Made by a program: the position numbers and the translations under genes
The notes under the pieces: generated by a model
What the model was told of the DNA's origin: nothing
Database searches by the model: none
Seen by the model: the letters and a program-made list of their open reading frames with translations, nothing else
Virus record (IMG/VR): IMGVR_UViG_3300048764_000086
Coordinates: 1-21,639 of that record
Reading direction: 5' to 3' (one strand)
Length of the DNA stretch: 21,639 bases
From: a virus
Part shown: positions 2,895-21,639 of the stretch, one piece after another
Position numbering within the stretch: position 1 is the stretch's first letter
Layout of the letters: every line of letters begins with the position of its first letter

Positions 2895-4078
2895 AGAATC
2901 TTGACCTCCGGCAAAGGCACGATAAACCGGCCGCCACCGGCAAGCCACTCCCGTTCACGGTCAACGAACTCGTCGATGAAATGCCACGGCAACACCAGAT
3001 AGAAATCAGGGTTCGACGCACGGGACTCTTCTTCGCTGACAACCGGGATACCGGTTGCGGTCACCGTCCCGTACTTGTCAGGATTGCGGTCCGCCGCGAC
3101 CGCCGCCAACTGCGGTCCAATGTTCGCGTACTGCAACACCACGTTTCCCTTCGTAGACGCACCATACACATGCACGACCTTTCCGCCATCAGCGAGCTTC
3201 ACAAGCAGACCGTGCAAATCGGACCCGGCTTGCAAGACACGCCGCGCGAACCGCTCATACGGCTGGGCGGTGTCTAACGCCTGCTCGAACTCCGCGACCC
3301 TCAACCCGCGCAACGACTCGCGCTCATGCCTGCCCGTGTGCCCGATAAACAGCCTGATGCTCCCGCCGTTCACGCCGTTCAACTCGGCTTTCACGACCTC
3401 CAAGCCATGCTCCCCCACCAAACGTTCAAGCACGCTCAGCGAGTAGTAGCAAAGATGTTCATGCACCACGGCATCAAAGCCGGTGGTGGCAAGCATCGAC
3501 GGCAGATAGTGCAGCTCCGCAACCCACACGCCGTCCGAATGCAACGCGCCGGCGACCATTTGCACAAACCGGTGCGGGTCGTCGAGGTCGTACAGCATCG
3601 CGATCGACGTGATGACCTTCGCCTTACGATGCTTCCCGTCATAGAACTCGCGTCGAACCTTGTGGCCTTTCGCCTCCGCGTAGCTCGCGACGCTTGACGG
3701 GTCATACCCGATTTTCTCGGCCTTCACGGTGTACCCGTCCAACAACGTGCCGTCGTTACAACCAACGTCAACGACAAGACTTGCCGCACCAACATCAACC
3801 ATTCCTTCTGCTTGACGGGCGATCTCATGCAGGTTGTCAGTCATTGTCCTGTTGACCCCGGACCTGTACCAGTAGCTGTCGTACAACACGTAGCCCGGAA
3901 CCGTATGCCTGAGCTGCACGAGGCCGCACGCCCCTTCCTTCTGCGTGTCGCAGCGCATCAAATCCAACGGCACTCTGCGCTGCACCGCGTCTTTGAACGC
4001 ACCGGCGATCTGCTGCTCACCAAGCGACAAGATCGGTGTCAGCGGGCCACCGCACACCCGGCAAGACGTACGAATCAT
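2891..4078 (-). CDS. sugar C-methyltransferase, TylCIII/NovU-like
   Basis: This 395-residue protein has the three-part layout of NDP-sugar C-methyltransferases. An N-terminal zinc site is formed by Cys6 and Cys9 (CRVCGG) with Cys43 and Cys51. A class I SAM domain follows with VVDVGCNDGTLLDGY at about residues 102-116 and a VVHEHLCYYSL block near 205. A C-terminal domain contains VVHVYGASTKGNVVLQY near residue 300. The HEHLxYYSL and YGAxxKG motifs are typical of the family that methylates carbon 3 of NDP-4-keto-6-deoxy sugars. Length is usual (about 400). It overlaps the genes on both sides by 4 bp. No NDP-sugar synthesis genes are visible in the window, so the substrate would have to come from the host or from elsewhere in the genome. 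Confidence 0.85.
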   Translation of the reverse strand: MIRTSCRVCGGPLTPILSLGEQQIAGAFKDAVQRRVPLDLMRCDTQKEGACGLVQLRHTVPGYVLYDSYWYRSGVNRTMTDNLHEIARQAEGMVDVGAASLVVDVGCNDGTLLDGYTVKAEKIGYDPSSVASYAEAKGHKVRREFYDGKHRKAKVITSIAMLYDLDDPHRFVQMVAGALHSDGVWVAELHYLPSMLATTGFDAVVHEHLCYYSLSVLERLVGEHGLEVVKAELNGVNGGSIRLFIGHTGRHERESLRGLRVAEFEQALDTAQPYERFARRVLQAGSDLHGLLVKLADGGKVVHVYGASTKGNVVLQYANIGPQLAAVAADRNPDKYGTVTATGIPVVSEEESRASNPDFYLVLPWHFIDEFVDREREWLAGGGRFIVPLPEVKIL

Positions 4079-9806: not shown

Positions 9807-10370
9807 TTAGCCGGCCGCCAGTCCGCTGAGCAGTAGAGGGTTGACCCGGACCGCTACGCCCTGCCCCGGGTTACCGATGTCCATCGCACGGCCGACAGCC
9901 CACACCGGCGTGAACGTTGACGTGGACGACACACCGTAGATCACGATGTTCGAATACGAAGCACCAGTGACCGCACCAAGATTTGGCGTGAGGTTCGACA
10001 CGTTCGAAATCGGGTTTGTCACCGGCGATGCGGAGATCACACCAACATACGCGCCAAGGTTCACGGACCCCTGGACCGTCTCGCGAACAATGTTGCCAAT
10101 GTCGATCACCGAAACAGGCTTGCCGGCAACAGCGTAATCGCGGGCAAACCCGACAGGCTCGTCACTTGACGACGCGCACATCCGAACAAAAAAGCCGGGG
10201 GGGTTCGCGATCGGCGAGAAGCTCGAGGAAGTTGTGGACGCGACACCAAACGTGACCGCGGCGCCAGCGATAACGTCCGAAGCTGCGAAACACTCGATCG
10301 TGCCGCGCTTCGTGTGCCAAAAGTCCTGGTTGGTTGTCGACCCGTAGGCTGTGGATGCAGTGAAAGCCAT
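9807..10370 (-). CDS. capsid decoration/stabilisation protein
   Basis: This 187-residue protein (MAFTASTAYGSTTNQDFWHT) has a first domain with GTIECFAASDVIAGAAVTFG, resembling the small beta-barrel of head-decoration proteins, and a Gly/Ser/Val-rich remainder. It lies between protease/scaffold and major capsid genes, the usual slot for a decoration protein. The ATG shares its first base with the TAA of the protease gene (TAATG), with GGAG 5 nt before it. It should bind the outside of the capsid lattice. The assignment rests on position, size and the barrel-like N-terminus. Confidence 0.7.
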   Translation of the reverse strand: MAFTASTAYGSTTNQDFWHTKRGTIECFAASDVIAGAAVTFGVASTTSSSFSPIANPPGFFVRMCASSSDEPVGFARDYAVAGKPVSVIDIGNIVRETVQGSVNLGAYVGVISASPVTNPISNVSNLTPNLGAVTGASYSNIVIYGVSSTSTFTPVWAVGRAMDIGNPGQGVAVRVNPLLLSGLAAG

Positions 10371-10924
10371 TAGAGCTCCAGCTCCAGTTCGCCCTTGAGA
10401 TGCTCGTCAAGGACACGGTTGTAATCGGTCTTCGGAAGCTTGTTGTCCTTGATGTGCTGCCAGATCGCGGAGTCCAGTGTCTTTGTCTCGCTGCCAACCG
10501 GAACGGTGGTCGTGTTGTTCCACCCCGAAGGCTTCGTGTTCACGATGACCGGGCCCTCGTCAAGGAGCTTCAACGTCGCGTCGGCGTCAAGGGTGTAGAA
10601 GTGGCGTGAAGACTCTTCCTGGCCGGCGACAGCACGACCAGCCTCAAGCGCCCTAGTCCAGGCGATCTCAAACTTCTGCTGGTGAAGCTCGTTCGCCGCA
10701 GCGCGGCCCGCGGTCGCGTCGCTGCGAAGGCCCGCAAGTTCTGTCGAGTCAAGAAGAACCTTGTGCTCGTCGGCAGCCAGCTGCTCAAGCGTCTTCACCG
10801 GCTCCGTAACCGGTGGCGCTGTGGCCTTCTCAAGAAGCGTTACGACCGCTGCCTCGACAGCCGCATCATCCGCGGTGTCGTCCAGGTCGAGAAGCTTCAG
10901 AGTGTTGTCGGTGACCGTTGCCAT
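10370..10924 (-). CDS. possible nested scaffold protein (internal start)
   Basis: Within the protease gene an in-frame ATG at 10924 opens MATVTDNTLKLLDLDDTADD, exactly where the helical scaffold part begins. GAAGAAG directly precedes it, and a GATAGTC copy lies 14 nt upstream (10939-10945). The product would be 184 residues. In Mu the scaffold Z is made from an in-frame internal start in protease gene I, so the same arrangement is plausible here. This is inferred, and the longer fusion may be the only product. Confidence 0.4.
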   Translation of the reverse strand: MATVTDNTLKLLDLDDTADDAAVEAAVVTLLEKATAPPVTEPVKTLEQLAADEHKVLLDSTELAGLRSDATAGRAAANELHQQKFEIAWTRALEAGRAVAGQEESSRHFYTLDADATLKLLDEGPVIVNTKPSGWNNTTTVPVGSETKTLDSAIWQHIKDNKLPKTDYNRVLDEHLKGELELEL

Positions 10925-11644
10925 CTTCTTCGCAGGCTGACTATCCGCACCGAACCCCGGCAGACTAGACAGACTCACACCAAGCTCCGAAGCCCTGCGC
11001 TTGATCAGTTTCTTTGCCGCAGCCGCGTCACCATGACCGGACGCCGCAAGGATCGCCGCCGCGTGCAGCTGCGCCACGTTCCTGATCGGATAGGAACCGT
11101 CCGGCAGCGAGTTGCCTTCCTTCAGCGCAAGCTTGCGCTCCGCCGCATCAACATCCAGCAGCGTCAACTCGTCTTCCATCGCCTCCACCAAAGCGTCCGC
11201 CGACGCAAGACTGATCCTGCGCATGTTCAAATGCGGCTTGTTCGTTAGCGCGCCACCCATCAAGGCGTTCGTGATGTCGGCGCCAGTCTCGTCCGTTGTG
11301 TCCCCGTAGGTTGGGGAGAAAAACAGGTAGCGCTTGTCCTCAATCGCGCTCCTGCCGATCGGCGTCCACTCCACGTCAGCCATCGGCACACCATCAACCA
11401 GATCAACGTCGGTGATCCATCCCGCCGCCTCAGTCCTGCGAGGCTGACGGTCAGCCGAATGGTCAAGGTCAATCAAAGCCCTGTGGTCGGGCAGCCGTGC
11501 CAAGCTCGCCTTCCACGAAGCGACATCCTGCTCGGTGATCGAGAACTCACCGTACTTCTTGTGGTGGAACGTCCCGAGCTTCGCGACCTGCAACCGGCCT
11601 GTCGCTGTGGCAGGCGCGTCAAGCAAAACCGAGAACTCACCCAT
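10370..11644 (-). CDS. prohead protease fused to scaffold, Mu I-like
   Basis: This 424-residue protein begins MGEFSVLLDAPATATG. The N-terminal part matches the Mu gene I family: VAKLGTFHHKKYGEF near 20-34, ALIDLDHSADRQ with the IDxDH motif at 58-62, AAGWITDVDL, and FFSPTY near 108, then GGALTNKPHL. Near 170-222 is a second segment (LPDGSYPIRNVAQLHAA to KRRASELG) that resembles a small domain often fused to phage proteases. The C-terminal 180 residues are Ala/Glu/Lys-rich and helical, as in scaffolds. The protease should cut the scaffold and perhaps other head proteins during assembly. GATAGTC lies 7 nt before its ATG. Codons 19-28 hold the 29-bp repeat shared with an early gene. Confidence 0.8.
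   Translation of the reverse strand: MGEFSVLLDAPATATGRLQVAKLGTFHHKKYGEFSITEQDVASWKASLARLPDHRALIDLDHSADRQPRRTEAAGWITDVDLVDGVPMADVEWTPIGRSAIEDKRYLFFSPTYGDTTDETGADITNALMGGALTNKPHLNMRRISLASADALVEAMEDELTLLDVDAAERKLALKEGNSLPDGSYPIRNVAQLHAAAILAASGHGDAAAAKKLIKRRASELGVSLSSLPGFGADSQPAKKMATVTDNTLKLLDLDDTADDAAVEAAVVTLLEKATAPPVTEPVKTLEQLAADEHKVLLDSTELAGLRSDATAGRAAANELHQQKFEIAWTRALEAGRAVAGQEESSRHFYTLDADATLKLLDEGPVIVNTKPSGWNNTTTVPVGSETKTLDSAIWQHIKDNKLPKTDYNRVLDEHLKGELELEL
11561..11589. repeat. 29-bp repeat, copy in protease gene
   Basis: These 29 bases are identical, in the same orientation on the plus strand, to 18286-18314 near the start of the first early gene. After one mismatch, three more bases match. 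Here they lie on the non-coding strand of the protease gene and correspond to mRNA nucleotides 56-84. A match this long by chance in a window of this size is negligible. Confidence 0.9.
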
Positions 11645-11651
11645 ACCAGCG

Positions 11652-11658
11652 GACTATC
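11652..11658 (-). promoter_or_regulatory. GATAGTC start-associated element (copy 3)
   Basis: GATAGTC followed by CGCT lies 7 nt before the protease ATG at 11644, just after the TAG of the 23-residue membrane peptide. Spacing and sequence match the copies before 1291 and 14025. No Shine-Dalgarno is present. Confidence 0.5.
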
Positions 11659-11660
11659 GG

Positions 11661-11732
11661 CTAGCGCAGCCGCCCAAACACGTAGACCGCGCAAACAACG
11701 ATCGCGGCCACAATCAAAATCGTGATCAGCAT
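11661..11732 (-). CDS. tiny single-pass membrane peptide
   Basis: An ATG at 11732, one base after the portal gene's TAG, opens a 23-residue frame: MLITILIVAAIVVCAVYVFG then RLR and stop. It is almost entirely one transmembrane helix with a positively charged C-terminal end, so the C-terminus should stay cytoplasmic. GGGGTGG lies just upstream as a possible ribosome site. It fills most of the gap between the portal and protease genes. Function is unknown, and such peptides in head operons are often overlooked because of size. Confidence 0.5.
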   Translation of the reverse strand: MLITILIVAAIVVCAVYVFGRLR

Positions 11733-11733
11733 C

Positions 11734-14025
11734 CTATCCACCCCCCGCCGACGGATCGTCGCTCATCAAATACACGATCATGCAACGGCACCTGTCGCCA
11801 CCCTGACAGTCCGGGTTCGGGCAGTCCGGCAGATCATTCAACTCCTGCACGTCGCCGGTGTCCGCAGCCTCACAGTCATCGCAAGTATTGTCGTCCAACA
11901 CGCTCGTGTACACGCCGGCCACAGCACCATTAGCGACCGCGGCATCGTAACGTCCGTCACCGATCTGCGGCGAAGCATTCGACAGGGCTTCCAAATGCAA
12001 CTGTCCGGCCGCAGCCTGAGACGCAGCCACACCCGCATCCCTGACACCGGCCACGTTGACCTGCGCAACCTTCGCCGAGATAGCGTTTGCGATCGCCACG
12101 GCAGAGTTCTCCGCCCGCACCCTCGCCCGACCGAATCGTGCACCAACCGCGCCAAGCACACTCGCAACATCAAGCTGCTTCTGCTGCTTCGCGAGCTCGT
12201 CGACCACCGTCTGATGGCCCACACGGTACAGTCGCTCGTATTCGCCCTGTATCGCATCGGCTAGTTCGCCAGTATCTGGCTGTGCTGGATGAGCACGCCC
12301 GCTGGCAATCTGTTCGGCAAGCCTTGACGCGGCCGGTAAAGCCGCTGTCTCGATCCCTGTTCTTGCGCTGTCGAACGCTGCCCGCAGCTTGTCCTGCGAC
12401 AACACCGCGTCATGCCAACGATCCAGCTTCTTCGGTGACGCCGGGCCCTTCCCCGGAAACGCCGGGGCAGTCGTAGGATCACCGGCAGGCTTCCGGCCGC
12501 TAGGCAACTCGCTCGGCTTCGCTTCGGGTGCGATCGTCTCCGGCGACTGCAACACCGGATTCATCTGCGGCCCATTCGCCTGCAACGCCGAAGCCTTCAA
12601 CGCCGCCTCCGACGCCGCCTCCTTCAACGATCTCACATCCGCGTTCGCCGGCGGCAAATCAGCCCTTTCACGAAGCCAGTCCTCAAGCTCCGGATCGGCC
12701 TGCATCGCACCAGCACTAATCAGCAACTGCACGTACGCCGCGATCTCGCTAAGCGAAGCCGCATCCGTCAAATTCACGCTCAACACGGGTGACCCGTCAG
12801 CGTCAGGCCAGTTCAACAACCTGATCCTGTCCACCAAAGCATTCAACGGCGGCAACGGCCCGATCTGAGCGAACGCGTCAACCGCCGTCAAAAACGGGTC
12901 CATCTGAATGTCCGCCGTCGCCCTTGCCCCAACCTGATGGTGCCCGAGCTGCATGAAATCGCCAAGAAAACTCCCGGCAATACCAAGCTGATGGTACGTC
13001 AACGACGCCTGAATGCTCTCCCCGGAGCTCGAGTCGAACTTGATGACATCAACAAGCCACTCCTCACCCGGATTGCCGTTCGCGCCCTGCGAACCCGCTT
13101 TCGGGCCGGGCATCAGCACATACCCAGCCTCGTTCAAATGCAACGTCGCAAAAATCGTTTCGACCTGCGCCCGCGTTTTCGGGTCACTGTTGTTCGGCGG
13201 ATAGATGATCGGCACCCCAACAGCCTTACGCTCCTGGCCGATCGCGTCGATCCTTTCCAGCTTGTCCTTGTACATCCACGGCTTATACGCCGAGCGAAGC
13301 AGACTGACGCCCATCCAGTTGTCGCCCTCACCGCCCAGCCGGTAATACACAAGGTTCCCGGCCGGAATGATGATGTCAGGCTTGCTCGGAATGATCTGCC
13401 CGATATGCGTCATCTCGCCAAGATCGTCCTGCCACCAACGCCACACCGACCTTGGCAACCGGACCTGCAACGTTTTCGGCACCGTCAACGTGCGGCCCTT
13501 ATAGACAGTGGTTGTCCAGATCTGTTCGAACGGCGCGTACCCGGCCCTGATCATCAACGGCAACGCCTCCGACAGGTGCTGCGTGAACGACGGCCGCATA
13601 AACTGGTTGAGCGCCCACCAGATCGTGTCCGCAATCTCACGGTCCTGATCCGTAGCGTCATCGCCACCAAACGGATTCAACGTCCAAGACCCGGCCTGAA
13701 CAGGACTCGAGATCATCAACACCAGCCTGCGAATGTCCGGGTCCGTCCGGTACATCTCATCAAACATGTACTGGCCGGTCGGGCCAATCAGTTTCGGGTT
13801 CAGCTCATCCCACTGCGGCAAGCCCCAGTAGTTCGCTCTGCCTGTCTGGCCGAAGCTCACACCAAGCTGCGGTCTCGGCTCGTTCGCTGGTGACGGCGGT
13901 GTCGGGGTGTGCCCGAGCGTGATCTCGCCGGGCGCGATACCGTTCATCGGACGACCGAAAAATCCTCTCAGGGCGTCAGCGAACGCGACACCGCCCTGCT
14001 TGCCGTTACCGTTCTGCGACGCCAT
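11734..14025 (-). CDS. portal protein (DUF935-type) fused to MuF-like domain
   Basis: This 763-residue protein (MASQNGNGKQGGVAFADALR) has an N-terminal portal part with MYRTDPDIRRLVLMISSPVQ near 90, AGSWTLNP, and the GVSLLRSAYKPWMYKDKLER block near 240, as in Mu gp29/DUF935 portals. A Pro/Ala/Lys linker follows near 510-550. The C-terminal part (LDRWHDAVLSQDKLRAAFD onward) is MuF-like and helical. It ends in a Cys-rich segment with TCDDCEAADTGD, CPNPDCQGGDRCRCMIVYL, the 'D..tC..C...dG' type seen in MuF proteins. The portal forms the dodecameric DNA gate and the MuF part probably lines the head interior. It starts 6 nt after a GATAGTC element, with no Shine-Dalgarno. The fusion is longer than either usual protein. 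Confidence 0.85.
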   Translation of the reverse strand: MASQNGNGKQGGVAFADALRGFFGRPMNGIAPGEITLGHTPTPPSPANEPRPQLGVSFGQTGRANYWGLPQWDELNPKLIGPTGQYMFDEMYRTDPDIRRLVLMISSPVQAGSWTLNPFGGDDATDQDREIADTIWWALNQFMRPSFTQHLSEALPLMIRAGYAPFEQIWTTTVYKGRTLTVPKTLQVRLPRSVWRWWQDDLGEMTHIGQIIPSKPDIIIPAGNLVYYRLGGEGDNWMGVSLLRSAYKPWMYKDKLERIDAIGQERKAVGVPIIYPPNNSDPKTRAQVETIFATLHLNEAGYVLMPGPKAGSQGANGNPGEEWLVDVIKFDSSSGESIQASLTYHQLGIAGSFLGDFMQLGHHQVGARATADIQMDPFLTAVDAFAQIGPLPPLNALVDRIRLLNWPDADGSPVLSVNLTDAASLSEIAAYVQLLISAGAMQADPELEDWLRERADLPPANADVRSLKEAASEAALKASALQANGPQMNPVLQSPETIAPEAKPSELPSGRKPAGDPTTAPAFPGKGPASPKKLDRWHDAVLSQDKLRAAFDSARTGIETAALPAASRLAEQIASGRAHPAQPDTGELADAIQGEYERLYRVGHQTVVDELAKQQKQLDVASVLGAVGARFGRARVRAENSAVAIANAISAKVAQVNVAGVRDAGVAASQAAAGQLHLEALSNASPQIGDGRYDAAVANGAVAGVYTSVLDDNTCDDCEAADTGDVQELNDLPDCPNPDCQGGDRCRCMIVYLMSDDPSAGGG

Positions 14026-14031
14026 CTAGCC

Positions 14032-14038
14032 GACTATC
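14032..14038 (-). promoter_or_regulatory. GATAGTC start-associated element (copy 4)
   Basis: TGATAGTCGGCT stands between the TAG at 14040 and the portal ATG at 14025, with GATAGTC 6 nt from the start. The stretch from the preceding TAC codon to ATGGCG closely matches that before the tail-fibre gene at 1291. Confidence 0.5.
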
Positions 14039-14039
14039 A

Positions 14040-14231
14040 CTAGTAGGCGCGGCCGTGGCCGTCGCGCGGAGCACTCGTCGTCAGATGATGCTTGCCGCAC
14101 GACTGGCATTTGTACACCCACCGCTTGCCCGGCGTTTTCTTCGCAGCCGCCACCGCGTTGCGACGATGCGGAAACGCCGTCTTGCTGCACAGCCAGTGCT
14201 TGACGATCACCCGTTGCGTCTTATACGCCAT
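14040..14231 (-). CDS. small zinc-ribbon-like protein
   Basis: This 63-residue protein starts at ATG 14231, overlapping the previous gene by 11 bp. It is basic (MAYKTQRVIVKHWLCSKTAF) and carries YKCQSCGKHHLTT near residue 45. The pattern 'y.C..C..wHLTs' is shared by many small actinophage proteins encoded near the terminase, with Cys-x2-Cys and a following His that probably bind zinc. A nucleic-acid binding role is inferred. No nuclease motif is visible. Confidence 0.6.
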   Translation of the reverse strand: MAYKTQRVIVKHWLCSKTAFPHRRNAVAAAKKTPGKRWVYKCQSCGKHHLTTSAPRDGHGRAY

Positions 14232-14352
14232 CAGAGGCGGACTGTTCCCGCGCATACGCGGCTGCGTCTAGCTCGTCAAGAATCGTTAAACTCTTCAACA
14301 GCGTTGAACAGTTATGGTCCCCTGCTTGCCGTGCGTCCGTCTCATCGTGCAT
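14221..14352 (-). CDS. hypothetical small acidic protein
   Basis: A 43-residue frame starts at ATG 14352 (MHDETDARQAGDHNCSTLLK), preceded by AAAAGGG at about 7 nt, a fair ribosome site. It overlaps its neighbours by 11 bp on each side. A longer frame upstream to 14547 merely shadows the next gene. The product is acidic and helical at the C-terminus (ILDELDAAAYAREQSAS). No family is recognised. Confidence 0.5.
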   Translation of the reverse strand: MHDETDARQAGDHNCSTLLKSLTILDELDAAAYAREQSASDGV

Positions 14353-14608
14353 TTCGAAGCCCTTTTGTAGGGTTGGGTTTGTCAAGTGCCGGTCTGCCCT
14401 CGTAAGACTCGCCGCCCACCGTTCCGCACACCTGCCATGCGGCCTTCTTCGCTGCTCTATGGCTACGGTAGCGCTCAGGCTCCGCTTCCCATACGCTTTG
14501 CATCGGAGAATCAAGCATGCGCCCAATCCCGTAACACCGGCGCTCAACGATCCAACGCTTTCTCCAGTACCGCTCGACAGCGTCGGCGTGCGTCATCAGC
14601 CGCCCCAT
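14342..14608 (-). CDS. hypothetical basic protein after terminase
   Basis: This 88-residue protein starts at ATG 14608 in a TGATG overlap with the terminase stop. It is rich in Arg and Trp (MGRLMTHADAVERYWRKRW, IVERRCYGIGRMLDSPMQ, HRAAKKAAWQVCG). A basic helical protein here could bind DNA, but no defined motif is visible and I do not recognise the family. Tight coupling to the terminase is the main evidence that it is real. Confidence 0.55.
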   Translation of the reverse strand: MGRLMTHADAVERYWRKRWIVERRCYGIGRMLDSPMQSVWEAEPERYRSHRAAKKAAWQVCGTVGGESYEGRPALDKPNPTKGLRNAR

Positions 14609-16203
14609 CAGAATCGTTCGCCCATGATGCCGGCCGTCACAGGCTTCTCCTGCCGCGACAACGTTCGAGGCTCAAACGCCTGGCCGCCAGCCATCAACGG
14701 CAACAACCGTGCCGCATAACTCACGCAATCCACCTGATCGTCATTGCGGCCCTTGTCGAACACGCAAAGCTCATCCTCAAACGCACCCAACCAATCGGCC
14801 TGACGCGGATGATAAACCTTGTGCTGCTGATACAAGCTGATCGCACCAAACGCCCGAGTAACCTTGTCCAACTTCGTTCCTGCCTCCGCCGGAATGTCCA
14901 TCACCGGATACCCGGCACGCGCCAGGATCGCCAACGGCGATCGTCCTGCACCAAACTTCTCAACCCACATCGGCGGACGGCCATACCGATCGGAGCAGCG
15001 CATCATGAACTCCGCGACCTGCTGATCCTCAAACCGCTGCCGCTCAAGATCAATCAACAGCAGCACGTCACCAGCAGCCCGCCATGTCGACACGACCGTC
15101 CAGTCCGCAGTCTGCTTGCTCGAGATAGCAACATCACAAACCTGGAACGTCGGACACACACCCGTATCAAACCTGCGGCCGTCCTCAAACACATAGTCGG
15201 ACTGCACCACAGCACCAAGCTGAACCGACTCGACACGCCAGTATCGAAAATCGGCCCGTTTGAACATGAACCCTTCCGCCGGCGACGGTCGCTGCTGATA
15301 CAACGCAGACCAATACCGCGGCAACTGGGCTCTACGAATCGCCTCGAGCTCATCACGACCATACCGCTCAGGCCACAACGCCTCACCCGGCTGTCTGCCA
15401 ATCGGATCGTTGTCCTCAGCCAACGCCGGCAGCACCACATGCGTCCACGGCTCAACATCAACCGGATGATTCAACAACCTCCCGGTCAAATCGTCCTCAT
15501 GCCACCGGGCCATCAGAATCACAATCGCCCCATGCGGCTCAAGCCTCGTCCTAGCCGTGCCCCAGAACCACTGCCAAATCTTCTCGCGAAGTAGTTCGCT
15601 GTCGGCCTCCTCGCTGTTCTTGTGCGGATCGTCAATGATCAAATCATCGGCGCCACGGCCCGTCAACATGCCGCCAACACCGAGCGCAAACATGCCGCCC
15701 TTCATCTGCTCCAACGTCCACCTAGCCCGTGCGGACGACCCCCTGTTCACGCTCACCCCATAGAACCGTGGCCCATACTCGATCAGCAAATCCCGGGCCT
15801 TGGCACCCCACTCCTCCGCAAACTCGGCACCATAACCCGCGACCACAATCCGCTTGTTCGGAAACATTCCGAGCCGCCACGCCGGATAGAACCTCGAACA
15901 CATCTCCGACTTGCCGTGTCTAACCGGCACCGACACGATCAGACGTTTCAACTCCCCGGCAGCAACCTGCACCAGCAGATCGTCAATCAGCCTGATATGC
16001 GCCGGCAGACCCCACTTCGGCTCCGTCGCCAACATCAACGACGCCGGCGACACCTGGGCGAGCAGCTGCAAGTCGGTCTCGGAGATCAGCCCCAAGTCGT
16101 CTGAGAGCCGGGTCGGCGACAAGATTGACGTTGACGAGCGGTCCACTAAGGTCAATTGTAGACGTCTGCGCGGCCTTCCCATGCAACCGATCGATGATCT
16201 CAC
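14608..16203 (-). CDS. large terminase subunit
   Basis: The ATPase-nuclease motor that packages DNA into the head. The frame can encode up to 531 residues from GTG 16203. The first 36 or so look non-conserved and lie over the preceding gene, so the true start may be GTG 16146, TTG 16095 or TTG 16071. Walker A is SVPVRHGKSE near 91-100 (usual form PPRHGKS) and Walker B is DDLIIDDPHK, followed by the coupling block VILMARWHEDD. The nuclease domain has VCDVAISSKQTADWTV, and a last acidic cluster is in DKGRNDDQVDCVSYA. All key residues expected of the family are present. It overlaps the putative small subunit gene by up to 221 bp in another frame. Confidence 0.9.
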   Translation of the reverse strand: MRSSIGCMGRPRRRLQLTLVDRSSTSILSPTRLSDDLGLISETDLQLLAQVSPASLMLATEPKWGLPAHIRLIDDLLVQVAAGELKRLIVSVPVRHGKSEMCSRFYPAWRLGMFPNKRIVVAGYGAEFAEEWGAKARDLLIEYGPRFYGVSVNRGSSARARWTLEQMKGGMFALGVGGMLTGRGADDLIIDDPHKNSEEADSELLREKIWQWFWGTARTRLEPHGAIVILMARWHEDDLTGRLLNHPVDVEPWTHVVLPALAEDNDPIGRQPGEALWPERYGRDELEAIRRAQLPRYWSALYQQRPSPAEGFMFKRADFRYWRVESVQLGAVVQSDYVFEDGRRFDTGVCPTFQVCDVAISSKQTADWTVVSTWRAAGDVLLLIDLERQRFEDQQVAEFMMRCSDRYGRPPMWVEKFGAGRSPLAILARAGYPVMDIPAEAGTKLDKVTRAFGAISLYQQHKVYHPRQADWLGAFEDELCVFDKGRNDDQVDCVSYAARLLPLMAGGQAFEPRTLSRQEKPVTAGIMGERF

Positions 16204-16645
16204 GGAACGTTGCCAGCCGATGCGGGTTGTCCCTCACGTACACAACACGCGCGTTCTCGCCATCACCGACAACCACAGCACGCTCAGCCACAAGCCCATC
16301 GGTCAACACTGCTTTGAGCTCGGCCTTGAACTCGTCGGCAACCTGTTGGATCAGTTCGATCTCGCGCGGACGACGCGGCCTGCCGGGATGATGGAAACCT
16401 ATAGCAGCCCGCGTTTGCGCGTCCTGGTGTGCGACGCACTTGTCGCTGTCTTTGAGCGGTCTTGCCTGGCATTGTGAGCCGTCCTTGTTTGGCTCGGTGC
16501 ACCAACGACGCCCAGACATGGCATGGGCCGGCGCTGGGGGCGGCGGAGGCGGGGCAGCAGATGGCGCACCCGGGCCAGAGGGCACGGATACCTGTAGACC
16601 CGCTGACGAACCGCCGCTGTAACCGCCCCGTTTGTCGATAGCCAT
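15983..16645 (-). CDS. putative small terminase subunit with zinc knuckle
   Basis: The start is placed at ATG 16645 (MAIDKRGGYSGGSSAGLQVS), 4 nt after the preceding TAG. 220 residues. A Pro/Ala-rich linker (APPPPPPAPAHA) leads to a Cys-rich motif, RRWCTEPNKDGSQC, then KCVAHQ: Cys-x9-Cys-x9-Cys-x2-His. A helical part follows, with HRLATFREIIDRLHGKAAQ, similar to the 'R...ildRl.GKp.q' ending of many small terminases. Position directly before the large subunit supports that role, which is to recognise the packaging site. The last 70 codons or so run over the large-subunit frame. Without a search the assignment remains probable rather than certain. Confidence 0.6.
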   Translation of the reverse strand: MAIDKRGGYSGGSSAGLQVSVPSGPGAPSAAPPPPPPAPAHAMSGRRWCTEPNKDGSQCQARPLKDSDKCVAHQDAQTRAAIGFHHPGRPRRPREIELIQQVADEFKAELKAVLTDGLVAERAVVVGDGENARVVYVRDNPHRLATFREIIDRLHGKAAQTSTIDLSGPLVNVNLVADPALRRLGADLRDRLAAARPGVAGVVDVGDGAEVGSAGAYQAD

Positions 16646-16649
16646 GGCC

Positions 16650-16817
16650 CTATTTTCTAGAGATCCGAAAGACCAACCACGCAAACCGGGCAGCTTGACG
16701 CCGATTCTTCCGGGGCGCCGGAGGCTGATGCACACAGCAGAACTGACCGCCGCCCGTCGTCCACGCCTTACACGGCTCGCCTGTCCATTTTCTAGTTGCA
16801 GCGCAACGTTGAGACAT
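16650..16817 (-). CDS. small zinc-knuckle protein
   Basis: This 55-residue protein starts at ATG 16817 in a TGATG overlap. It contains MSQRCAATRKWTGEPC, then FCCVHQPPAPRKNRRQ, spacing Cys-x10-Cys...Cys-x2-His-Gln. The same knuckle occurs in the next gene (15983-16645). The C-terminal half is very basic, as in nucleic-acid binders. It resembles small phage proteins with a 'GePCkA...C..HgG' signature encoded next to terminases. A helper in DNA packaging is a fair guess, not shown. Confidence 0.55.
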   Translation of the reverse strand: MSQRCAATRKWTGEPCKAWTTGGGQFCCVHQPPAPRKNRRQAARFAWLVFRISRK

Positions 16818-17005
16818 CAGTTTGGGCCGTGTACGATCGCCTGGTTCACCGGAAGAAACGCCTGCTGCTGCTCGGCCGTTGAGATCCACGCGGCCGTCAA
16901 CCTCACCGCGTCACGGCGGGTCATGCCAGCCTGTCTAAGCGTGAAAAAGAAAGCGTAGGCGCAAGCACCAGCCACCGTCGCAGCCATGACGCGCGCATCA
17001 GTCAC
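16817..17005 (-). CDS. hypothetical protein with one hydrophobic helix
   Basis: This 62-residue protein starts at GTG 17005 with a GTGA overlap on the preceding gene. Residues 6-22 (VMAATVAGACAYAFFFT) form a hydrophobic helix that could cross the membrane. Then come LRQAGMTRRDAVRLTAAW and a polar C-terminus. The 'R.aGmsR.dAvRLt' stretch is helical and resembles pieces of small actinophage proteins, but I cannot name the family. Confidence 0.5.
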   Translation of the reverse strand: MTDARVMAATVAGACAYAFFFTLRQAGMTRRDAVRLTAAWISTAEQQQAFLPVNQAIVHGPN

Positions 17006-17559
17006 GCCGGGCCTCTCAGGAACGCTTCGAGCGCAGCCTTCAACGACCTGACCGCAGAAAGGCGTTCCGCACGCCCCGAATCGGCGTTCAAAAGCAGCGA
17101 CTCCGCAAACAGATGCTGCGCACCGGTCATCGCATCAATCACCCTCAACACCACCGGATCAAGATCATCCTCAACAACGTCCGCGTCGACCAGCTCGCCA
17201 TGCAACCCTGACGACGCCTGCAACGCGCGCTGCACATCCCTCGCCGATGTTGCCGCCTCCGGCTCAGGCGCGTTCGCCGCGGCAATCATCTTCAAGCCCT
17301 GGCTCATCGACTCGAAATCCGCAGACTCTGCGCTTTTCACGAGCCGCATACACACTTGGGCTTGCCGTTCCGACCCGTGAAAGTTCTGCCCGAGCCACGG
17401 CAGCCAGTCACCATGCTCGCAACGGTCCTTCGCCTCAGTGAGCTTGCGGCCGATCCGGATAGCGCGCTGCACCGCGTTCTCAGTCTCGGTTTGCAACAGA
17501 TCCCACTCGCGGTTGATCTCCTTCGCAATATCGCCAAGCGTGCGCGTAATCTCGCTCAT
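17002..17559 (-). CDS. DUF3102-like protein
   Basis: This 185-residue protein starts at ATG 17559, overlapping the previous stop by ATGA. An upstream start to 17610 would run over the previous gene. The first 90 residues match the DUF3102 pattern: DIAKEINREWDLLQTETENA, RIGRKLTEAKDRCEHGDW, LPWLGQNFHGSERQAQVCM. Such proteins have a helical DNA-binding-like domain and occur in phages, plasmids and firmicute genomes, with unknown role. The C-terminal half is helical and acidic (DADVVEDDLDPVV). It lies second in the late operon, between the sigma-like protein and the terminase genes, so a role in packaging start or late regulation is possible. Confidence 0.65.
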   Translation of the reverse strand: MSEITRTLGDIAKEINREWDLLQTETENAVQRAIRIGRKLTEAKDRCEHGDWLPWLGQNFHGSERQAQVCMRLVKSAESADFESMSQGLKMIAAANAPEPEAATSARDVQRALQASSGLHGELVDADVVEDDLDPVVLRVIDAMTGAQHLFAESLLLNADSGRAERLSAVRSLKAALEAFLRGPA

Positions 17560-18164
17560 GCCGCGACCTCCGCAAGATCCAACGCCACATCCCGCAACCG
17601 CTCCACACACAAACCAGCCTCACGCGCACCAATCCGCAAAGCCTTCTGCGCATCACCAGCCTGATACCCCAAACCCAACAACACCCCAAACTTGACGGTC
17701 ATACGCCTGTCATGCCCCCAACGCCTGTCCAACGCCGCACCAATCCTTTGCGCATGATCACCGTCATACACGTCCTCCGCACGCAACTCGCGAATATGGT
17801 CGGTGCCGGTTTCTTCCACGATCACATCAAGACTAGCCGGTCGAGGATCATACTGCCAACGCCGCTTCCCGTCCTCGCCGGCAACAAGCCGATGGTTCTC
17901 CTGCAACCTGTGGTACGAATCGCCCAGCTTCAACCGTAGATGCTTCGACGCGTACCCCGCGAAACTCGAACCCGCCGGATCCCTCCCACCAAACCCTGGC
18001 TGGTAGCTCTTCGCAAGCCTGGACATGATCAACATGCCCTCGCCAAGCAGATCCTCGTACTCTTCCAGCGACAGACGCGCGTTGCCTGCCCTGATCGCGT
18101 CCCGAACGAACGCCTCGACGTCGAGAACGTCGTGCATTTGGACGCGCTGACTGAGCGTTGCCAC
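17556..18164 (-). CDS. sigma-like transcription factor
   Basis: This 202-residue protein starts at GTG 18164 with no Shine-Dalgarno; TAGTCT lies 9 nt upstream. Residues 33-85 resemble sigma70 region 2: LEEYEDLLGEGMLIMSRLAK (like 'DLlQeG.lgL..A...Y'), SFAGYASKHLRLKLGDSYHR (like 'F.tYA...Ir..l.d..R'). The C-terminal segment (KFGVLLGLGYQAGDAQKALR) could be a region 4-type HTH but is divergent. As first gene of the late operon it is a natural candidate for turning on late transcription. It could instead be a sigma-derived DNA-binding protein without polymerase contact. Confidence 0.5.
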   Translation of the reverse strand: MATLSQRVQMHDVLDVEAFVRDAIRAGNARLSLEEYEDLLGEGMLIMSRLAKSYQPGFGGRDPAGSSFAGYASKHLRLKLGDSYHRLQENHRLVAGEDGKRRWQYDPRPASLDVIVEETGTDHIRELRAEDVYDGDHAQRIGAALDRRWGHDRRMTVKFGVLLGLGYQAGDAQKALRIGAREAGLCVERLRDVALDLAEVAA

Positions 18165-18199
18165 CGACTGGGCAGACTAGCAGCCGCGGACGATACCCC

Positions 18200-18228
18200 T
18201 TGACACACCGAACGATTGTGCGTACACT
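18200..18228 (+). promoter_or_regulatory. early promoter P1
   Basis: TTGACA at 18200-18205, a 17-bp spacer and TACACT at 18223-18228 make a near-consensus sigma70/SigA promoter. Transcription should begin near 18235, about 22 nt before the ATG at 18257, with GAAAGGAA as ribosome site between them. It lies in the divergent gap between the late and early operons. Confidence 0.8.
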
Positions 18229-18256
18229 TGGGGTCCCGGAACCACGAAAGGAACCC

Positions 18257-18508
18257 ATGCCCTCTCCCCAGACCATAGGTGGTAGGTGGTGGAACGTCCC
18301 GAGCTTCGCGACCTCCAAAGCCATCCAGGCCGTCAACGACGTGCAAGCCGCAGACATCGACCTCGCGAACCTGATCGACCGGACAATCCGCGATCTTCGC
18401 CAACTCCAACCATCGTTCACCGGCACCCCATTGTACTCCACGATCCAGGCCACCATTGCGGGCCTCGAGCGCGAGTATGCGGCGACCGTGAGAAAGTACC
18501 CGGCATGA
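18257..18508 (+). CDS. first early gene, hypothetical protein
   Basis: This 83-residue protein starts at ATG 18257 with a good ribosome site (GAAAGGAA). It begins MPSPQTIGGRWWNVPSFATS, then a helical part with KAIQAVNDVQAADIDLANL and IQATIAGLEREYAATVRKYP, likely a helical hairpin or short coiled coil. Codons 10-20 include the 29-bp block shared with the antisense strand of the protease gene. No family is recognised. As the first product of promoter P1 it may be regulatory, but nothing in the protein proves that. Confidence 0.65.
   Translation: MPSPQTIGGRWWNVPSFATSKAIQAVNDVQAADIDLANLIDRTIRDLRQLQPSFTGTPLYSTIQATIAGLEREYAATVRKYPA
18286..18314. repeat. 29-bp repeat, copy in first early gene
   Basis: Identical to 11561-11589 in the protease gene. 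In the early transcript these bases lie about 50-80 nt after the predicted start and are fully complementary to the protease mRNA near its 5' end. Confidence 0.9.
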
Positions 18509-18708
18509 ACGAACTGCGCGGACTCGACAACTGGATCACCGGCGTCAGCGACACAACGAACCCGAGATCACCGTACTACACCGGCCCCGAGTTCGACCTG
18601 ATGATCTGCCCATGCGGATGCGAGTTCTCAACCGAGAACACCGGCGACACCCGATGCCCGGACTGCGGGAGCACCCGCACAACGATCCTCGACGACAGGG
18701 AAGACTGA
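18505..18708 (+). CDS. small zinc-ribbon protein
   Basis: This 67-residue protein starts at ATG 18505, overlapping the previous stop by ATGA. MNELRGLDNWITGVSDTTNP is followed by MICPCGCEFSTENTGDTRCP and DCGSTRT, giving Cys-x-Cys-x-Cys and Cys-x2-Cys pairs about 13 residues apart, typical of a zinc ribbon. The acidic end (DDRED) follows. It is probably a nucleic-acid or protein adaptor of the early operon. No enzyme motif is present. Confidence 0.7.
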   Translation: MNELRGLDNWITGVSDTTNPRSPYYTGPEFDLMICPCGCEFSTENTGDTRCPDCGSTRTTILDDRED

Positions 18709-18914
18709 TGGTTGCTTACAGCACACTCTCATGGATCGCCGGCATCGCCGTATGCTGGCTGGTCGCCGGGCTCATTGTATGCGGCGTGATCGCTTGGGGC
18801 AACTGGAACAAGCCAAGGTTCAAAATGGAATGGTTGGGCGGCGAGCTTTGGTTGTTGGACTACGGTTACCCGGTTGAGCTGCTTGCCGTCGATGGCGGCG
18901 TGTGCGCGAGTTGA
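18708..18914 (+). CDS. small membrane protein
   Basis: This 68-residue protein starts at ATG 18708 in a TGATG overlap. Residues 7-28 (LSWIAGIAVCWLVAGLIVC) form a clear transmembrane helix, followed by a short charged and aromatic domain (GNWNKPRFKMEWLGGELWLL). The topology is probably N-out or re-entrant with a cytoplasmic C-terminal part. No family is recognised. Early phage membrane peptides often alter host physiology or exclude other phages, but nothing here shows that. Confidence 0.6.
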   Translation: MVAYSTLSWIAGIAVCWLVAGLIVCGVIAWGNWNKPRFKMEWLGGELWLLDYGYPVELLAVDGGVCAS

Positions 18915-18918
18915 CGCC

Positions 18919-19125
18919 ATGATCGACTGGGCCGAGCTAGGCGTAACCGATCCCGCCGAAATTCGCTTGCTACAACATGACCGCAGGCTTTACGGCAACT
19001 GCTACATCAAGGATGGCAAACGGATTGATCCGCAAGACCTTTACACGACTGGCGGCGAACCGATGTATCCGCGCTTACCAAAAGCCAACTGGGACCTTTT
19101 CGCGCTGATCGATGGGACGCTGTAG
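18919..19125 (+). CDS. hypothetical protein
   Basis: This 68-residue protein starts at ATG 18919, 4 nt after the previous stop. It reads MIDWAELGVTDPAEIRLLQH, then DRRLYGNCYIKDGKRIDPQD and PRLPKANWDLFALIDGTL. It is mixed helix and strand, with conserved-looking Trp and Tyr but no known motif. It is the last gene before the terminator at 19174-19202. Confidence 0.55.
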   Translation: MIDWAELGVTDPAEIRLLQHDRRLYGNCYIKDGKRIDPQDLYTTGGEPMYPRLPKANWDLFALIDGTL

Positions 19126-19173
19126 GCTCTCTTGTGCTGCGGCCGATCCAGAGTGGAAGCCGTTTGTGGGATA

Positions 19174-19202
19174 GGGCGTCCGACCATCACGGTTGGGCGC
19201 CC
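19174..19202 (+). terminator. hairpin terminator after first early operon
   Basis: A 12-bp stem, 19174-19185 with 19191-19202 (ten Watson-Crick and two G-U pairs), has a 5-nt loop ATCAC. It lies 49 nt after the stop at 19125 and directly before promoter P2. The following bases are TTCCGGGTT, so the U-tract is weak, and termination may be partial. Confidence 0.6.
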
Positions 19203-19209
19203 TTCCGGG

Positions 19210-19292: not shown

Positions 19293-19490
19293 ATGGCTGA
19301 CCCTCGCTGTGATCGTTGCGACGACCAAGGCTGGTATCTCGACAGTCTGGAATCGCGTGCACCGTTGTTTGGGCGGTTGAAAATGTTGCGGGAGCCGTCT
19401 TGGGTTCGTACGGTCGTGGAGTGCGGGTGCCGCGATGTTGCCGGCAATCTTGCGAGAGACCGGTACATGGCATCACGGGCTGCGGCATGA
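19293..19490 (+). CDS. small zinc-finger-like protein
   Basis: This 65-residue protein starts at ATG 19293 (GGAGAA upstream). It begins MADPRCDRCDDQGWYLDSLE and later has VVECGCRDVAGNLARDRYM. Two Cys pairs, Cys-x2-Cys and Cys-x-Cys, about 37 residues apart and with 'C..C.d.Gw', resemble half a DnaJ-type zinc finger as found in many small phage proteins. It probably binds zinc. No further role can be read. Confidence 0.65.
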   Translation: MADPRCDRCDDQGWYLDSLESRAPLFGRLKMLREPSWVRTVVECGCRDVAGNLARDRYMASRAAA

Positions 19491-20977: not shown

Positions 20978-21639
20978 GTGGTTGTTCTTGACGAAAGACT
21001 CGAAACACTCGCCACCCTGAAACTCGCAGCGGGCGGACACCACTCGTTCGAGGAAGGCGTGTGCGTGATGGAGGCCGTGGCGTGGATCGCCGGCGAACCG
21101 TTCAGCGACCATCCCAAGTGCGCGAGTCCGGTGATCGCCACGTTTATGCGCCAATGGAACGACGACCTCGACGACGACGGCAGGCAGATGTTGAAGCCGC
21201 TGATCCCAAAGCTTGTCGGCACCGCTGTCGCGGTGCAGTATGACGCTGCTGGCCGGAAGGTCGAGGATCGTCGTGGCTGGATGTGCGCCGACTGGCTTGT
21301 GCGTGTTCATACCCCGGCGTGGCTTGAGCTTGCCGGATGTGTTGAGGCCGCGACAGCGTTGCGGGCGCTCCCGGAGTTGCGGACTCTTTGGGCGTTGAAG
21401 AAAGCGCGGCCGGTCATCGAAGTAGGACGCGCAGCCGGGGCCGCAGCCTGGGACGCAGCCGGGGCCGCAGCCGGGGCCGCAGCCGGGGCCGCAACCTGGG
21501 CCGCAGCCGGGGCCGCAACCGGGGCCGCAGCCGGGGCCGCAGCCGGGGCCGCAACCATGGCCGCAGCCGGGGCCGCAGCCGGGGCCGCACCCGGGGCCGC
21601 AACCGGGGCCGCACCCGGGGCCGCACCCCAGGCCGCAAC
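20978..21639 (+). CDS. CVMEAVA-type phage protein with Ala-rich repeat tail, partial
   Basis: The start is GTG 20978, 7 nt after AAAGGAA; the frame is open to the window edge (220 codons). The N-terminal 150 residues belong to a family I recognise from actinophages, of unknown function: GGHHSFEEGVCVMEAVAWIA near 19-38, GEPFSDHPKCASPVIATFMR, LKPLIPKLVGTAVAV and WMCADWLVRVHTPAWLELA. From residue 152 (base 21431) the protein is a run of AAGA tetrapeptides, with Trp, Asp, Thr, Pro, Met and Gln at set places. Family members often carry such Ala-rich, Trp-containing repeats. It is the first gene after the structured leader. The function and the length of the repeat tail remain unknown. Confidence 0.75.
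   Translation, partial: MVVLDERLETLATLKLAAGGHHSFEEGVCVMEAVAWIAGEPFSDHPKCASPVIATFMRQWNDDLDDDGRQMLKPLIPKLVGTAVAVQYDAAGRKVEDRRGWMCADWLVRVHTPAWLELAGCVEAATALRALPELRTLWALKKARPVIEVGRAAGAAAWDAAGAAAGAAAGAATWAAAGAATGAAAGAAAGAATMAAAGAAAGAAPGAATGAAPGAAPQAA
21431..21639 (+). repeat. 12-bp tandem repeat, 17 units and continuing
   Basis: The unit is GCAGCCGGGGCC (Ala-Ala-Gly-Ala), in phase with the gene. Seventeen full units fit before the window ends. Only three positions vary: the second codon is GCC, ACC or CCC, the third is GGG, TGG, ATG or CAG, and the fourth is GAC once. GCA is constant in every unit. The repeat makes a Gly-x3-Gly ladder in the protein. Confidence 0.9.

Follow-up and report, generated by a model that had tools for sequence, protein, structure and literature searches.

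How does a small gene come to carry, close to its start, a stretch of DNA that also lies within the head maturation protease gene of the same virus, and does the complementarity between the two transcripts serve any regulatory end? The question is raised by the window analysed here, a 21,639-nt stretch of viral DNA (IMG/VR record IMGVR_UViG_3300048764_000086). The original prediction offered two explanations for a 29-nt match within it: that an early RNA pairs in trans with the late protease mRNA, or that the start of the early gene contains a copied piece of the protease gene. As discussed below, a short dispersed duplication by illegitimate copying requires the fewest assumptions, and we give it a probability of about three in four.

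The repeat and its setting

On the plus strand, bases 11561-11589 match bases 18286-18314 at all 29 positions, as had been claimed. After a single mismatch (G at 11590, C at 18315) come the three further matching bases noted before, which extend the likeness to 11593 and 18318 (32 of 33 nt). The copies lie 6.7 kb apart in the same orientation on the plus strand, which is antisense relative to the protease gene. Numbered from the ATG at 11644, the protease mRNA is complementary to the 29 nt at nucleotides 56-84 (codons 19-28), and the promoter elements TTGACA (18200-18205) and TACACT (18223-18228) place the other copy some 50-80 nt downstream of the predicted transcription start; both points agree with the original prediction. 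The coordinates of the features discussed here are collected in Table 1.

Table 1. Positions of the two repeat copies and of the genes and signals around them
Feature	Position	Strand	Basis and remarks
Head maturation protease gene	10370..11644	-	Mu-like prophage I protein, PF10123 (E=2.5e-19); phrog_328 (E=1.3e-21)
Putative donor copy, protease codons 18-28 (LQVAKLGTFHH)	11561..11593	-	Sequence comparison
Sigma-70-like promoter sequence TTGACA-17-TACACT	18200..18228	+	10/12 to consensus; predicted transcription start near 18235
83-aa orphan ORF with patch	18257..18508	+	SD AAGGA upstream; stop overlaps next start as ATGA
Putative derived copy, 32/33 identical (first 29 exact), codons 10-21 of 83-aa ORF	18286..18318	+	Sequence comparison
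Next small ORF	18505..18708	+	Overlaps 83-aa ORF by ATGA; twin has methyltransferase cassette between the two

Leaving aside its 3' tandem array, the window has no second dispersed direct repeat that is exact over at least 20 nt. The longest repeat in each of 60 order-3 Markov simulations was 13-17 nt, and the simulations together with the window scan show the two copies to be far more alike than chance permits, bearing out the earlier estimate that a chance match is negligible. No further copy of the 33-mer is found in the window, where the next best match reaches 67%, and a family of operators was rejected for want of additional copies. The window ends (21382-21639) in an array of 12-bp GC-rich units whose minus strand is open as Ala/Pro-rich and Arg/Leu/Pro-rich frames.

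The minus-strand protease gene has the portal gene on one side and the major head gene on the other. A 23-aa hydrophobic ORF (MLITILIVAAIVVCAVYVFGRLR; 11661-11732, minus strand), which resembles a tiny membrane peptide, lies in the gap from the portal stop to the protease start.

The gene that bears the other copy has a Shine-Dalgarno sequence, an ATGA overlap with its neighbour and a GC content by codon position (0.56, 0.51 and 0.77) resembling that of the protease and portal genes; on these grounds, translation of the "early RNA" as an mRNA is very probable. It is gene order that suggests early (or "first early") timing for this transcript. An AlphaFold2 model of the 83-aa protein, made without an alignment (mean pLDDT 74), predicts a two-helix hairpin (residues 16-54 and 58-80) after a low-confidence N-terminal coil (pLDDT about 50 over residues 1-20). 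The patch, residues 10-21, would occupy mostly this predicted coil, along with the beginning of the first helix. Since the patch is translated antisense, giving RWWNVPSFATSK rather than LQVAKLGTFHH, peptide mimicry or a protease decoy was rejected. Adjoining the promoter is a divergent 202-aa ORF (17556-18164, minus strand) that by eye resembles a small sigma-like factor; it has no significant match in Pfam or PHROGs.

A twin strain and rearrangement beside the small gene

A second IMG/VR contig, IMGVR_UViG_3300047539_000046 (the twin, L001), is about 99.9% identical to the window across long aligned stretches. SNPs set it apart, as do larger changes after 18517 and a replacement between the terminase and portal genes, where 35 nt in the window (14286-14321) face about 89 nt of unrelated sequence. 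These differences in both SNPs and structure identify the twin as a distinct strain or assembly. Both repeat copies are intact there (3421-3449 and 10201-10229), with neither site changed.

The two strains part ways directly after the 83-aa gene. At this point the twin has a DNA-methyltransferase-like gene (L001 10420 onward) that the window lacks, the start of which shares 36 nt (94%) with that of a small window gene at 19487. These otherwise unrelated genes thus begin alike, with MSELPTEGQN in the window and MSELPTVGQS in the twin methyltransferase. Moreover, about 576 bases of the window (roughly 18627-19203) are absent from the twin, with a 3-bp TTC microhomology at the junction. The methyltransferase cassette, the shared 5' ends and the TTC deletion together place short-patch and gene-boundary rearrangement directly beside the 83-aa gene. 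Near-identical 5' ends (GGCATGARCGAACTG or similar) are in fact common to three genes, those at window 18505 and 19487 and the twin methyltransferase.

The existence of the twin also bears on whether the repeat is real. The window is a metagenomic virus contig, a point in favour of an artefact. That both copies are held by a second contig differing in SNPs and structure makes an assembly error very unlikely, and chance was rejected on the simulations, none of which yielded a repeat above 17 nt; artefact and chance, taken as one explanation, are barely credible.

Relatives and the probable direction of copying

Searches of IMG/VR with the protease, portal, terminase and 83-aa proteins returned only the twin and two further contigs, L007 and L008, and neither the protease alignment nor a 22-mer found anything in GTDB genomes. 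A degenerate pattern for WWNVPSFAT matched only the twin. The 16-mer core of the repeat occurs in 39 other contigs, one copy apiece, 4 of which match a 24-mer with three mismatches; all 39 were taken as chance or unrelated matches, and these contigs served as the background for the base rate given below.

The protease of L007 is 55% identical to that of the window, and its stretch IQIAQLGDFSD aligns without gaps to LQVAKLGTFHH (20 of 33 nt identical). The 5' end of the L007 protease gene has no repeat longer than 14 nt within the L007 contig, which starts within the portal gene and so does not include the early region. The 83-aa protein presents a different picture: outside the twin, no relative of it turned up in IMG/VR, in 50,697 phage records or in PLSDB plasmids. 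The searches gave no patch-free relative for the receiving site, the 83-aa gene being present only in the near-identical twin, patch included. Because a distant relative has the homologous protease stretch, the protease copy is ancestral rather than acquired, and the copy in the 83-aa gene appears derived.

These comparisons support the earlier suggestion that the early gene took in a copied piece of the protease gene at its start: the donor stretch is gap-free in L007, and the other copy sits in an orphan gene beside a rearranging region. On this reading, illegitimate recombination or template switching would have placed a copy of about 33 bp, taken from the 5' portion of the protease gene, within the N-terminal coding region of a small gene that sits in a rearranging cluster of accessory genes. 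At the left junction, in GGTGGTAGGTGGTGG, repeated GTGGT motifs match the edge of the donor, and this possible microhomology may have guided the copying. As 33 nt make 11 codons, such an insertion would have kept the reading frame. The antisense relation would simply follow from the orientation of the patch, which has roughly a one-in-two chance for any copied patch, and we infer that it has no regulatory role. Dispersed exact repeats of at least 29 nt do turn up in other viral DNA (2 of 56 blocks, see below), which favours a duplication, but they are uncommon and not all of their sites fall within long ORFs. Also weighing against it are the lack, among the relatives found, of one that would display the insertion, and the near-complete identity of the copies, for which selection for pairing would account as well.

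It might also be asked whether the 33 bp are needed at both places as DNA, as a binding site for a protein or a site of recombination. Two near-identical copies in the same orientation are what such an element would leave. That there are only two, with the next best window match so much poorer, argues against it, as do the lack of clear dyad symmetry by eye and the fact that sequence conservation in the protease itself accounts for one copy. Recombining the two copies would, moreover, delete the portal and terminase genes, and a shared DNA element is on balance highly improbable.

Possible antisense pairing between the transcripts

The stable complementarity between the early and protease transcripts amounts to 29 bp. 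The isolated duplex has a computed energy of -63.6 kcal/mol, and after the costs of opening the two sites (15.3 and 14.2 kcal/mol) the net gain is about -34 kcal/mol. Other measures are unremarkable: the repeat site is not unusually accessible in either transcript, and the whole-duplex energy (-182.7, compared with a background of -158, sd 14) does not set the pair apart, since it is dominated by long weak duplexes.

Pairing might act in either direction. In the form first proposed, the early mRNA would bind codons 19-28 of the protease mRNA in trans and provoke cleavage by RNase III or RNase E, delaying protease synthesis until early transcription fades. Such pairing is thermodynamically possible, and it has a mechanistic analogue in the coding-sequence silencing of ompD by MicC, which acts at codons 23-26 via RNase E and cannot block translation there (PMC3469820); pairing as far in as codons 19-28 may thus have a mechanism open to it. 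Phage antisense RNAs, including OOP and aQ, provide a further precedent (PMC12197685). Against these stand the position of both sites within translated sequence (codons 10-21 and 19-28), where ribosomes should cover them, their ordinary accessibility, and the distance of the protease site from its start codon, beyond the region in which pairing usually blocks initiation. MicC, for its part, acts with Hfq and through the free 5' end of an sRNA, not as a translated mRNA. A full-text literature search found no paper on trans early/late antisense in phages. We regard early control of the protease by this route as quite unlikely.

In the reverse direction, the late protease mRNA would pair with the early mRNA and destroy it, shutting the early operon late in infection. 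The energetics are identical, and on the early mRNA the pairing site lies 29 nt past the start codon, some 50 nt from the predicted 5' end. The weaknesses noted above apply here as well, and this version is very unlikely indeed. Taking both directions together, trans antisense control is unlikely.

Were the pairing real, an antisense regulator would have arisen in one step, with a translated mRNA regulating a late head gene: 33 bp of that gene, placed in the early 5' coding region, would yield a message that delays the protease or is destroyed when the late message appears. This one-step gain is rather improbable, and the present evidence falls short of establishing the origin of an antisense regulator. 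Read as a duplication, the locus is a tidy example of a phage patching a small gene with a piece of its own genome.

Comparison with known systems

The closest parallel to duplication is phage mosaicism by illegitimate or short-homology recombination, which likewise leaves short displaced segments in accessory regions of small genes. Cassette exchange, a microhomology deletion and shared 5' ends, all part of that likeness, adjoin the patch here. What sets the locus apart is its donor, a second gene of the very phage that received the patch, read in antisense, and the small size of the patch (33 nt). The start-associated repeats of cluster K mycobacteriophages are also short and lie near the starts of small genes; those repeats occur many times upstream of start codons, whereas here there are two copies only, one inside each of two genes.

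Among antisense systems, MicC-ompD of Salmonella shares a site deep in coding sequence, but MicC is an sRNA that depends on Hfq and has a 12-nt seed, while the putative regulator here would be a translated mRNA, fully complementary over 29 bp. Lambda OOP and aQ and the c4 RNA of P1 and P7 are, like the early transcript, phage RNAs complementary to another mRNA of the phage. OOP and aQ lie opposite the genes they target, unlike the present loci, whose match at a distance stems from a duplicated patch.

Dispersed repeats in other viral contigs

To estimate the base rate of such repeats, other viral contigs were sampled as 56 blocks, none longer than 20 kb and together 1.06 Mb. In this sample, which is small, not fully random and drawn mostly from contigs picked by a GC-rich 16-mer match, dispersed exact repeats of at least 20 nt occur in 8 blocks, of at least 25 nt in 3 and of at least 29 nt in 2. 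The repeat studied here is uncommon, then, though not unheard of. Some of the background sites with repeats of at least 29 nt fall close to ORF ends or in DNA without a long ORF. In two other viral contigs, L087 (4834-16912) and L091 (5970-12932), exact repeats of 20-33 nt form dispersed families, some members of which lie outside long ORFs and are possibly regulatory.
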